From NCBI GenBank assembly GCA_021789815.1, contig JAJYIZ010000007.1, positions 1 to 36,355 on the forward strand: 36,355 bases of DNA, in the 5' to 3' direction. The DNA comes from Microcaldota archaeon. GTDB lineage: Archaea > Micrarchaeota > Micrarchaeia > Micrarchaeales > Micrarchaeaceae. The position numbers were made by a program, and so were the translations under genes. Below are positions 2,834 through 19,145 of the stretch, piece by piece (positions within the stretch are counted from its first letter, which is position 1; every line of letters begins with the position of its first letter). The notes under the pieces were generated by a model that was not told the origin of the DNA, searched no databases, and saw only the letters and a list, made by a program, of their open reading frames with translations.

Positions 2834-2923
2834 GTCAAAACCTTTATATACCCAATTAACAGAATATTACTCGTAAGCTATTGCTGTGAAATACTAAATA
2901 CTTAAGCATAGGTTGTGGTAGGG

Positions 2924-3256
2924 ATGATCGGAAAGAACTCAAAGCATAATGGACACGCTTCTCTGAATGAAGTACTGGGCATTCTGGAGAGCAGGAAGAA
3001 GGAGCGCGAGCTCACTTACGAGCAGCAGATCGCCCTGGAGCACGCTACAAAGTTCGCCTCAGGCAAGGGCTCGGAGCAGGGCACAAAGAAGGCGCTGGAG
3101 GCCCTTGGAACCCTATCGCAGCAGACCATAATGATGATACTGAACATAATGCCCAAGAGCGAGATGCTTCTAAAGCAGATATTGGCCGTAGAGAAGAGGT
3201 CGTTCACAGAAGAGGAAGTGAAGAAGGTACTTGCCATAGTAAAAGAAGCGAAGTAG
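2924..3256 (+). CDS. rpoF: DNA-directed RNA polymerase subunit F (Rpb4 family)
   Basis: About 110 aa with the Rpb4/RpoF layout. It has an N-terminal segment with LNEVLGILESRKKE and YEQQIALEHATKFA, then the C-terminal HRDC-like helices (TLSQQTIMMILNIMPKSEMLLKQIL ... EEEVKKVLAIV) where splitting of the helices is normal for the family. RpoF pairs with RpoE to form the RNAP stalk, which helps open complex formation and RNA binding. A GTG nine bases upstream is in frame, but ATG at 2924 is preferred. An AT-rich element (taaatact, about 2893-2900) lies 25-30 nt upstream, consistent with a leaderless transcript. DUF655 follows closely, the usual archaeal arrangement (eL21, rpoF, DUF655). Confidence 0.9.
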   Translation: MIGKNSKHNGHASLNEVLGILESRKKERELTYEQQIALEHATKFASGKGSEQGTKKALEALGTLSQQTIMMILNIMPKSEMLLKQILAVEKRSFTEEEVKKVLAIVKEAK

Positions 3257-3282
3257 GTTTGAATGCCTATACGTGTATTGAC

Positions 3283-3861
3283 ATGCAACAACCAGAAGAG
3301 AGACGTGAGGAGTATGCATACGTGCTCGACTTCATGTCTACTGGGAAGTCTTTTTCTACAAAATCCGAGCCTGTAGCGCAGCTTGTAGGTGAGGAGTGGT
3401 TCACGCTTCTAGAAGTGACACCAAAGCCCGGGGTCACCATGGCTCTTGGTGAGAGGGTATACATAGGAAAGGCAGAACGTGAGAAGGTCTCGTTGATAAA
3501 GTCAAGGGTAGCATACGACGATTTGACACAGACGGCGAAGAACGAGCTTCAGAAGACCGTAATGAAGATCATAAAGGATAACGAGAAGAGGTTCGTCGAC
3601 GTGTTCAACAATGCTGGGCCTCTTAACATACGCCAGCATTCCCTGGAGCTGCTTCCTGGGGTTGGCAAGAAGCACCTGGAGGCGATACTGAAGGCACGAC
3701 AAGAGAAGAGCTTTGAGAGCTTCGAGGACATCAACAAGCGGGTGTCGCTCCTCCAGGAACCCACGAAGCTGATAACGGAGCGCATAATGAGAGAGTTGCA
3801 GGGCACCGAACGCTTCTACATGTTCACAAAGCCTTACGTAAAGCGCGAAGGAAGATACTGA
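3283..3861 (+). CDS. DUF655 family protein (OB-fold plus helix-hairpin-helix, putative RNA/DNA binding)
   Basis: The N-terminus EEYAYVLDFMSTGKS followed by a beta-rich region and the HhH-like segment LELLPGVGKKHLEAILKAR, then a C-terminal basic stretch, match the archaeal DUF655 family. Family members are predicted nucleic-acid binding proteins; no biochemical role is established that I can name. ATG at 3283 (MQQPEERREEY) is preferred to the in-frame TTG at 3259 because family members start just before the REEYAYVLD motif. It lies downstream of rpoF, and the next gene starts four bases after its TGA stop. Confidence 0.85.
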   Translation: MQQPEERREEYAYVLDFMSTGKSFSTKSEPVAQLVGEEWFTLLEVTPKPGVTMALGERVYIGKAEREKVSLIKSRVAYDDLTQTAKNELQKTVMKIIKDNEKRFVDVFNNAGPLNIRQHSLELLPGVGKKHLEAILKARQEKSFESFEDINKRVSLLQEPTKLITERIMRELQGTERFYMFTKPYVKREGRY

Positions 3862-4303: not shown

Positions 4304-4591
4304 TTATCTTACCTTCTCTAGGTGTATTGAAGGTACTATTAGGGTTCTTTCCGCACTCATTATCCTTACCTTAACAGCATAGGCAGATCCCCTTCTCTCT
4401 GTGACGGTTCCTACCCTGCCCCTGTACCTTGGGTGCGGTATGTTGTGCATGCCACCCTTTGGCACTATGGCTACCTTTTCGCCTACCGCGAACTGCTTTA
4501 TTATGGTGTTAGTGTTCAGGGTTGAAGGCTTGTGGTGCCTTGCTAGGTGCCTTGTCTTGCCTACAAGCAGACCCTGTGATCGCTTTGACAT
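4304..4591 (-). CDS. rpl21e: Large ribosomal subunit protein eL21
   Basis: 95 aa, typical archaeal length. It starts with MSKRSQGLLVGKTRHLARHH and has the KOW-like core (FAVGEKVAIVP ... PHPRYRGRVGTVTERRG). It is a structural protein of the 50S subunit. It is divergent from tbp over a 68-bp spacer that contains a single ATATATATA element equidistant from both start codons. In many archaea eL21 lies on the same strand just upstream of rpoF/DUF655; here it is on the opposite strand but still in the same neighbourhood. Confidence 0.95.
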   Translation of the reverse strand: MSKRSQGLLVGKTRHLARHHKPSTLNTNTIIKQFAVGEKVAIVPKGGMHNIPHPRYRGRVGTVTERRGSAYAVKVRIMSAERTLIVPSIHLEKVR

Positions 4592-4621
4592 ATTATCAAT
4601 GCAGAGAATTTGACGGTGAAC

Positions 4622-4630
4622 ATATATATA
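4622..4630. promoter_or_regulatory. Single central TATA element shared by eL21 and tbp
   Basis: ATATATATA lies at the midpoint of the 68-bp spacer. Its centre (4626) is 34 bases from the tbp ATG (4660) and 35 bases from the eL21 ATG (4591). Archaeal TATA boxes are normally centred ~26 bp before the start of transcription, so each direction would give a leader of about 8-9 nt. No second TATA-like element is visible in the spacer. The reading as a bidirectional promoter is inference. Confidence 0.6.
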
Positions 4631-4659: not shown

Positions 4660-4977
4660 ATGGCTACAAGTAGTTCACCAAAGAAGAACGTTATACTGAA
4701 ACCTACGTATACAATAGTAAATATAGTGGCGAATACAGCGCTGAATACAGACCTTGACCTGTACGGGCTGGCAAAGCTGTCAAGGGACGTAGACTACGAG
4801 CCGGAGCAGTTCCCTGGGGCAATCCTCAAGGTGCACGACCCCAAGGCAGCCTTACTTCTCTTCAAAAACGGCAAGATAATCTGCACAGGCGCTAGGACCA
4901 CTGCCGACGTCAGAAAGGCAATAAACCACGCGATAGACCTGATAAAGAGGTACAAGAGCGGCGCGCGGGGTAGATAA
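4660..4977 (+). CDS. tbp: Single-repeat (half-length) TATA-binding protein
   Basis: 105 aa, whereas archaeal TBP is ~180-190 aa built from two ~90-aa direct repeats. Residues 16-98 form one complete repeat: YTIVNIVANTALNTDLDL, DVDYEPEQFPG, LLLFKNGKIICTGA and a C-terminal helix. The two DNA-kinking Phe of a repeat are present (F51 in EQFPG, F68 in LLFKNGK). The frame ends in TAG followed by 300 bases of AT-rich noncoding DNA, and no second repeat is found in any frame, so this is not a simple frameshift. To build the usual saddle it would have to homodimerise or pair with another half encoded elsewhere. A basic 15-residue N-terminal tail and a KRYKSGARGR tail flank the domain. Confidence 0.9.
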   Translation: MATSSSPKKNVILKPTYTIVNIVANTALNTDLDLYGLAKLSRDVDYEPEQFPGAILKVHDPKAALLLFKNGKIICTGARTTADVRKAINHAIDLIKRYKSGARGR

Positions 4978-5286: not shown

Positions 5287-5976
5287 ATGTTGGATACTAG
5301 ACCACCTTCAGAATCTTTAATGAGGCAGGATCCGCTCCAGAAGAAGCTCGGAGAGGCCTATCCTGGCGCTGGCATAGAGATATACACGATTTACAATAAA
5401 AGCTTCTTTGGCAGATTTGGGGATATGGCCGGACCAGAGTTTGCAGACTATCTGCTTGCCCCTACAACTGTAAGAATTCTTGGCGATTACAACCGCAGGC
5501 TTAATTTTGAGGGCGTAAGCCCAGAGTACAGCCATTGGATGCGTGCCCAGCTAATAACTATGCTAGGTGCAATAGGCTACCTTGGAGGAGATTCAAGAAT
5601 GGCTGCTGCTGCAGATGTAGCATCTTCAAAGACGATCGGAATGCCAGAGATGTGGGCCATAGTTAGGAGCGAAAGCCCAACAATACACCCTGTTGAGCAC
5701 CTTGGTGATATCGCAATGAAGATATCGCACCTGACAGGATCGCCGAATTCGAGCCTCTGGACAGATGTATTCGACAAAATTGTAGAGGCCATGAAAGCGG
5801 CAAGTGATCAGGGCAAATTGGACGTAGTCCTTCGAATAAACTCTGTATTGGACAACACCCTGTTGGCTGTCACAGACCCGAATATGACATACAACGAAAA
5901 GACTGTTACGCTTAAGAGCATGGCAAACGACATACACGATGTTGTCAGCGACCTTGGGCTTCTGCAAAGGAGATAG
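5287..5976 (+). CDS. Hypothetical protein, mainly alpha-helical
   Basis: 229 aa; I do not recognise the family. The reading frame is long, has its own TATA-type promoter and codon use like its neighbours, so it is probably real. There is no signal peptide or convincing membrane segment. Predicted helices dominate after residue ~60, with an Ala-rich stretch (RMAAAADVASSK) and a C-terminal helical part. The gene stands alone, converging with the methyltransferase gene with 4 nt between stops. No function is assigned. Confidence 0.7.
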   Translation: MLDTRPPSESLMRQDPLQKKLGEAYPGAGIEIYTIYNKSFFGRFGDMAGPEFADYLLAPTTVRILGDYNRRLNFEGVSPEYSHWMRAQLITMLGAIGYLGGDSRMAAAADVASSKTIGMPEMWAIVRSESPTIHPVEHLGDIAMKISHLTGSPNSSLWTDVFDKIVEAMKAASDQGKLDVVLRINSVLDNTLLAVTDPNMTYNEKTVTLKSMANDIHDVVSDLGLLQRR

Positions 5977-18182: not shown

Positions 18183-19145
18183 CTAAGTAGTACACCCATA
18201 TTTTAATGTGCCACAACTTAGTTCATTTGGACAGCTGGGTGGACAAACGCAAAAGTAGTGAAGGTTGTAACACACACCACAACTACAGGCAGGTAGAGAG
18301 GTTGTGCTCGTCGTTGTTGTAGTGGTTGTAGATGTAGGTGGCGGGGTGTAAGTGAAGGTTATGGTATTTGATGCAGATACACCAAATGAGCTAGCAGTGA
18401 CCGTTACAGTTATGGGCGCATTGCTCTTTATTGTTGAATAGGCTATGCCGCTTGGGTTTGTGGTAGCGTACTGTGGATAGAGTAATGGTGTGGAAGAGCT
18501 CTCGGTGAAATTTACTGGGGCGCCTGCTATGTTTGTGCTAAGAAACGTGACTGCCGCGCTCAAGGTCACTGGCACATTTGTTGCAGCACTGGATGCGACG
18601 CTGAGTGCTACAACGACGTTTGAGGAGCTTGCTGCTTTCTGCGCGTGCGCTCCGAATGTCCCTACAAAGGTCTGTGTTATTGGTGATGAACACGATGTTA
18701 TTGAGGTAAGATTTGCACCAAGCCCGCAGTATGAGGCATTGAGATAGATTTTGCCCGATATGTACTGGTTCAGGCTTATGCTGTTGGCCACTGTAAGCTG
18801 GCAGAACAGGCTACCTCCGGAAGGAACAAAACCAGGAGAGCACGCCACCTTTGACGTATTTGTACCGTTAACGTTTGCAAAGAGGTACGGGGCCTGAATT
18901 GGATACTGCTGTGAATTTGTTAACAGAAGCGTGAGTATTCCCGCATGCGTAATCGAGTTCGGACCAAGAGTTATGTCTTGGCAGGTTACAAAGAATGTAA
19001 ACGAGCATGAGTTTCCTGCTATCAGTGTTGGCTGTATTACATAGAAATAGAGGAGTGCTATAGCGAGGGCTAAGATTAGTATGGCCCACCCATAGACTGT
19101 CAGATACTCTAATGCTGCTTGAGCCCTAGCTTGCTGCAATTGCAT
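18183..19145 (-). CDS. Large pilin-like surface protein with Ig-like domain and Cys-rich tail
   Basis: 320 aa. Class III signal: ARAQAALEYL followed by a hydrophobic helix, expected cut after RA. Residues ~40-165 are a Ser/Thr/Asn-rich domain with six Cys and an arrangement like the smaller pilin (CSxT, then PSGG...CQL). Residues ~175-270 look like a bacterial Ig-like (Big) repeat: VALSVASSAATNVPVTLSAAV, NPSGIAYSTIKS, then TVTASSFGVSASNTITFTYT. A Thr-rich linker (~275-288) leads to a ~35-residue tail with eight Cys. Several NxS/T sequons are present. Likely a membrane-anchored or fibre-forming extracellular protein; the Cys-rich tail could be a disulfide knot. Confidence 0.8.
   Translation of the reverse strand: MQLQQARAQAALEYLTVYGWAILILALAIALLYFYVIQPTLIAGNSCSFTFFVTCQDITLGPNSITHAGILTLLLTNSQQYPIQAPYLFANVNGTNTSKVACSPGFVPSGGSLFCQLTVANSISLNQYISGKIYLNASYCGLGANLTSITSCSSPITQTFVGTFGAHAQKAASSSNVVVALSVASSAATNVPVTLSAAVTFLSTNIAGAPVNFTESSSTPLLYPQYATTNPSGIAYSTIKSNAPITVTVTASSFGVSASNTITFTYTPPPTSTTTTTTTSTTSLPACSCGVCYNLHYFCVCPPSCPNELSCGTLKYGCTT

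Follow-up and report, generated by a model that had tools for sequence, protein, structure and literature searches.

The TATA-binding protein (TBP) is regarded as a universal two-lobe protein, and its symmetry as the record of an ancient homodimer duplication. In 2013 Brindefalk et al. reportedly described single-domain (monopartite) TBP proteins in some Archaea, none of which is known to have been shown to be the only TBP of its cell. Canonical archaeal TBPs, such as those from P. woesei (1PCZ/1AIS/1D3U), M. jannaschii (2Z8U) and S. acidocaldarius (1MP9), carry two fused lobes per chain, have a single TFB partner and serve BRE+TATA promoters. A single TBP-type lobe is also present in the N-domain of RNase HIII and in the TBP-like domains of DNA glycosylases, but these lobes are fused to enzymes, lack the pair of DNA-kinking phenylalanines and the TFB contact, and are not transcription factors. 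The poxvirus proteins VITF-3/VETF-l do place a TBP fold with a changed number of lobes in a transcription factor, but in bipartite or tripartite form within one chain that is asymmetric and depends on the viral polymerase (PMC12917281). That TBP descends from a protein with a single lobe is an existing hypothesis (PMC7221094, PMC12917281). TBP itself and single-domain archaeal TBP proteins are thus known, but in a literature search of incomplete coverage we found no half-TBP for Micrarchaeota/DPANN, and no description of one as the sole TBP of any cell.

The gene described here, tbpA, lies in a window of 36,355 nucleotides (contig JAJYIZ010000007.1, C8 of the source genome) from a member of the Micrarchaeaceae (Candidatus Micrarchaeota). 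It occupies positions 4660..4977 of the forward strand, with its ATG at 4660 and its stop codon at 4975–4977, and encodes a protein of 105 residues that we call half A. Pfam TBP (PF00352) matches this protein with one domain, which extends from residue 17 to residue 98 and accounts for profile positions 2–85 of 85 (E 6.4e-26). The NCBIfam TBP models (~185 positions) cover only a single repeat of half A, with scores far under their cut-offs. There is no second TBP repeat in the window, and the DNA 3' of tbpA is non-coding until an unrelated ORF begins at 5287. The proposal of the initial annotation, that tbpA encodes a single TBP repeat with a clean stop followed by non-coding DNA, is thereby upheld. 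The ORF at 5287–5976 (+) codes for 229 residues without a Pfam match and is located between tbpA and a gene for a GCD14-type tRNA methyltransferase. Elsewhere in the window, 1434–1916 (−) and 18183–19145 (−) encode two small proteins, each with a membrane anchor and a pilin-like N-terminus (AQAAxEYL), for which no confident family match was obtained.

An AlphaFold2 model of half A, computed from 43 aligned halves, reproduces the strand-helix-strands-helix order of one TBP lobe with a mean pLDDT of 85. The part modeled with the lowest confidence comprises residues 1–30, including S1, which in canonical TBP is the strand at the junction between the lobes. Superposition of this prediction on one TBP lobe gives an rmsd of 1.0–1.4, and all 44 PDB matches returned by Foldseek at E ≤ 0.001 are TBPs. 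The best of these is the S. acidocaldarius protein (1MP9), with 42% identity to half A across one lobe.

Half A shares with canonical TBP not only the fold, but also the kinking Phe pair, the DNA-facing Asn and the TFB-contact Glu residues. To compare these positions we used 94 sequences of half A, 30 of the second half described below (half B), 47 A-type halves from sister family f2, 10 lone halves from families f22–f27, 16 from f14–f21, and 19 of each fused lobe. N21, V23, Y46, P48, Q50, F51, P52, G53, F68 and G71 are at or near 100% in all of these groups. Asn21 (codon 4720..4722, +), which by homology is the DNA-facing Asn of S1, is found in 100% of half and fused lobes. Phe51 (4810..4812, +) and Phe68 (4861..4863, +; L5.1), the first and second kinking Phe, are invariant in every group, and the initial annotation was right to assign both to this protein. 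Codons 4798..4806 (+) specify Glu47-Pro48-Glu49, the TFB-contact signature (C.L3.2/C.L3.4), in which the two acidic residues are the equivalents of human E284/E286, known to contact TFIIB (PMC7221094). Glu47 is present in 100% and Glu49 in 97–100% of A, B, lone and fused lobes, whereas canonical archaeal N lobes vary at the Glu47–Glu49 positions (E/D/N, E/D/E). Both residues are retained in essentially every Micrarchaeota half, and the lobes of this phylum thus bear the TFB signature of a C lobe.

The source genome is a draft of 678,604 bp in 29 contigs with an estimated completeness of 89.96%. A Pfam TBP search of this draft returned just two matches. One is half A, the other is half B, encoded on contig C29 (G000:C29:11649-11894, −) by an ORF of at most 117 residues, or 107 if counted from the first ATG, again with one TBP domain (E 1.4e-25 or 2.8e-25). 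The same search of this ~90% complete draft revealed no two-repeat (fused) TBP; the claim of a half-TBP stands against the full-length protein that could have overturned it. The initial annotation had predicted that a half-TBP must either homodimerize or pair with a second half encoded elsewhere. Such a second half does exist in this genome in the form of half B, so that an A-B pair is possible and the two halves need not be identical. The genome also contains one TFB gene, which codes for a zinc ribbon, two cyclin repeats and a C-terminal HTH, and whose product is similar in kind to the P. woesei TFB of 1D3U/1AIS (41–47%, aligned over 181–375). A two-repeat TFB with a zinc ribbon is encoded by the source genome and by 19 of the 20 relatives tested. 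In the lone-half genome G256 (f2, 94% complete) we found no TFB match, probably because of an assembly gap.

We surveyed 85 Micrarchaeaceae genomes and, more widely, 292 genomes of the phylum. Of the 85, 80 contain a TBP match and 69 contain two or more half-TBP matches, as a rule A together with B (69/85 is a hand count from the match tables). These halves are encoded by ORFs of ~100–140 residues at separate loci. Each of the single-contig genomes G004, G058, G070 and G075 contains exactly two half-TBP matches, the last of these being the closed genome of Candidatus Micrarchaeum sp. A_DKE (NZ_CP060530, 989,838 bp). Single-lobe size and a clean stop recur in dozens of independent assemblies and in several genera, and this conservation rules out an assembly or frameshift error, including a frameshift in tbpA that hides a second repeat. 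In a broader form, the artefact explanation would also allow for an assembly break or for a full TBP in the missing 10% of a draft that is, after all, split into 29 contigs. However, several of the genomes that share the size and stop consist of a single contig, and the same pipeline detects both domains of the fused TBPs in families f3–f13 and in viral contigs. We consider an artefact of any kind to be extremely improbable.

The only two-domain ORF in the Micrarchaeaceae (L003, G067:C43:2733-3251) is located on a small contig and is nearer in sequence to canonical TBP. The same genome also carries halves A and B, and this two-repeat TBP probably represents contaminating DNA of a different archaeon, which may be the host. 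Long readings of half B in G034, G036 and G077 (212–481 residues) were examined as fusions and rejected, as they are open frames that run antisense into the neighboring gene.

Outside the Micrarchaeaceae, many genomes do with one half. Sister family f2 has one TBP match in 41 genomes and two in 32, and this split follows genus, with g38, g44 and g51 lone and g43 and g46 paired. Families f14 and f18–f27 and part of f15 (~39 genomes) have one half only. In total, ~80 genomes from f2 and about a dozen other families contain exactly one half and no fused TBP. By hand count from the match tables, 25 of them are at least 90% complete, so that it is not credible that every one of them lacks a second gene by chance. 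The homodimer branch of the initial prediction therefore applies to these relatives, where a homodimer would be the simplest reading. Families f3–f13, on the other hand, encode a fused TBP with two domains in one ORF of ~185–225 residues.

A few loci depart from these patterns. In an f2 genome, a single reading frame at a contig end (L145; JAGWHJ010000032.1, REEA76; G203:C39) contains the final 30 residues of a half-TBP. They are followed by a linker of ~17 residues and then by a whole half-TBP in which the identical 30 residues recur. The arrangement is either a recent re-fusion in tandem or a loop in the assembly. Genomes of genus g93 (f15) each contain three half-TBPs, of which two are nearly identical to each other. 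These two are recent extra copies, either adjacent (L205, G177:C62:704-943 and 1973-2215) or far apart (L203/L204, G173:C1:448260 and 893905). L165 (G179:C12:19300-19539) is a divergent stand-alone TBP-domain ORF (E 7e-11) without EPEQFPG, found beside a normal half; to judge from its sequence, it is a further single-lobe paralogue. In viral contigs we found ordinary two-repeat TBPs only, for example L345 and L346 (IMG/VR 3300005590_000035 and 3300027845_000169) with 186 residues and the TFB-contact motif in both lobes.

The position of tbpA among its neighbors identifies the gene. It adjoins a divergent gene for ribosomal protein L21e (4304..4591, −; assigned by Pfam L21e and adjacency), which marks the tbp locus across the phylum. 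The conserved neighborhood also includes genes for a DUF655 protein (3259..3861, +; Pfam DUF655, E 1.8e-63) and for Rpb4 (RpoF; 2915..3256, +; Pfam RNA_pol_Rpb4). Half A or the lone half occupies this place in f1, f2 and most of f14–f27, and the fused TBP of f3–f12 is found beside the same L21e-Rpb4-DUF655 genes. Because lone half and fused TBP share this locus, the lone half, or half A, is the tbp orthologue in place and not an extra paralogue. The fused TBPs of f3–f13 also have the lobe sequences closest to half A. Half B has another conserved locus in f1 and f2, beside genes named by inspection as a glycosyltransferase and an oxidoreductase-like gene.

The presence of two halves per genome could suggest that an ordinary tbp gene simply broke in two, leaving A as the N-terminal and B as the C-terminal lobe. 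Half A is indeed slightly nearer to N lobes (40.2% identity, vs 38.9% to C lobes) and half B to canonical C lobes (41.1%, vs 37.7% to N lobes). When the halves are scored with N-lobe and C-lobe HMMs, the differences mostly stay within a few bits, with B and f22–f27 leaning slightly toward C. The phylogeny argues against fission. In a tree of 98 lobes, B forms one clade (100/99; 100/100 in a reduced set), A-type halves and B together form one clade (97/90) apart from all N and C lobes, and the N and C lobes of canonical TBPs cluster together (98/90). AU tests on the reduced set reject both groupings that fission requires, namely A with N lobes (p-AU 0.002) and B with canonical C lobes (p-AU 0.005). 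Furthermore, the lone halves of sister taxa are complete without a partner gene. Although gene conversion between lobes may blur the tree signal, we regard fission as very unlikely. Instead, the tree indicates that A and B are sister duplicates of an already single half.

The lobes of fused Micrarchaeota TBPs do not separate cleanly into an N and a C clade. The AU test rejects a clade that unites their N lobes with the canonical ones (p-AU 0.007), but not a single origin of these N lobes by themselves (p-AU 0.066). The two lobes within one fused protein are on average 63% identical, compared to 57–58% for the same lobe between proteins. This likeness points either to gene conversion within the fused protein or to a single half that was repeatedly duplicated and fused.

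Taken together, we assign a probability of about 0.83 to the reading that tbpA is the true tbp gene at its ancestral locus, that it encodes one lobe, and that the working TBP is a saddle of two separate single-lobe chains. Canonical TBP contains two lobes per polypeptide, but A, B and the lone halves contain one domain per ORF, so that the chains of this saddle would come from two genes or from one. In the source genome the saddle would be an A-B heterodimer and/or an A-A homodimer, and in the lone-half relatives it would be a homodimer. The near-palindromic 8-bp TATA box would be entered, and thereby bent, by the two phenylalanines of one lobe in each of its halves, and the two TFB-binding glutamates could be presented by either lobe.

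The role of half B is less certain. The A-A homodimer may be the general TBP, and B a second, specialised TBP that acts as B-B or A-B at only some promoters, much like the TBP paralogues found in some archaea. B forms a clade of its own that evolves faster and has its own conserved locus, and in the sister family entire genera (g34, g38, g44, g51) lack it but retain A. On the other hand, B occurs in nearly all well-assembled Micrarchaeaceae genomes and has the same DNA- and TFB-contacting residues, as in an obligate partner. Residue 20, which directly precedes Asn21 in S1, is Glu in 43 of 43 lone halves, whereas A, B and the fused lobes usually have V, Q or T there, as would be expected if the dimer interface had moved. 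This pattern is phylogenetically clumped, and we consider residue 20 a candidate dimer-interface position. B could thus be an alternative or regulatory TBP and not the partner of A, a serious contender that we rate at somewhat under even odds.

The probable promoter of tbpA (4619..4630, +) consists of a BRE-like AA at 4619–4620 followed by TATATATA at 4623–4630, 30–37 bases before the ATG. This site fits the motif AAgcTaTAAATATCTt, which we discovered de novo upstream of genes in the source genome (LLR 131 vs 49–53 for shuffled sequences). The same approach returned AAgcTTTATATA for the lone-half genome G206 (LLR 161 vs 56–63) and a weaker AAAGctTTttAaa for the lone-half genome G282 (LLR 93 vs 45–50). 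No clear TATA motif emerged de novo from the fused-TBP genome G087, a weaker sample with 89 upstream regions. In the source genome and in G206 alike, the motif includes a BRE-like AA and carries information in both halves of the TATA box. The motif core TWTWWAWA is nearly its own reverse complement and the AA upstream fits the BRE position. For comparison, Pyrococcus promoters contain the BRE RRAAA and the TATA box WTTTAAAW (PMC6640164).

These motifs also bear on the possibility that a half works as a monomer, binding half a TATA box together with TFB. None of our observations requires the sequence to show a second lobe, which leaves room for a monomer. Yet the two halves of the 8-bp TATA core in G206 carry similar information (~3.1 and 2.8 bits), and conservation extends to S1, through which two lobes would pair at their junction. 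A functional monomer is in our view highly improbable, and two chains per TATA box remain the preferred reading. The initial annotation had argued that with identical halves polarity must come from TFB and BRE. This is correct, but ordinary archaea already obey the same rule, in that TBP binds symmetrically and TFB sets the orientation (PMC6640164). A homodimer consequently needs no new polarity rule. Direction would be fixed by the single asymmetric TFB that reads the BRE upstream of the TATA box.

As to the origin of the single lobe, a rooted RpoB tree places the lone-half clade f22–f27 as the first branch in the phylum (rest 96/95), and with fused outgroups this tree implies at least four changes between half and fused TBP. 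Given the 86 columns of the lobe alignment and possible conversion between lobes, the lone half, in the view of the initial annotation a living model of the supposed ancestral state, may be either primitive or a reversion from a fused ancestor. Tentatively, and with somewhat more doubt than confidence, we suggest that the single lobe is the ancestral state of Micrarchaeota. According to this scenario, lone-half species would run all transcription on a homodimeric TBP, the order studied here would have added a second half (A+B), and other families would have independently re-fused two copies. If this is true, the steps from half to homodimer, heterodimer and fusion are visible side by side at one locus.

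The finding also concerns annotation, as each "TBP" counted in these genomes is half a TBP and the counts have concealed this. It raises the questions as to whether a homodimeric TBP bends TATA DNA, whether TFB alone sets direction, and what is gained from fusion or heterodimerization. With half, paired and fused TBPs at one locus in one phylum, the inference of an ancestral TBP becomes measurable.
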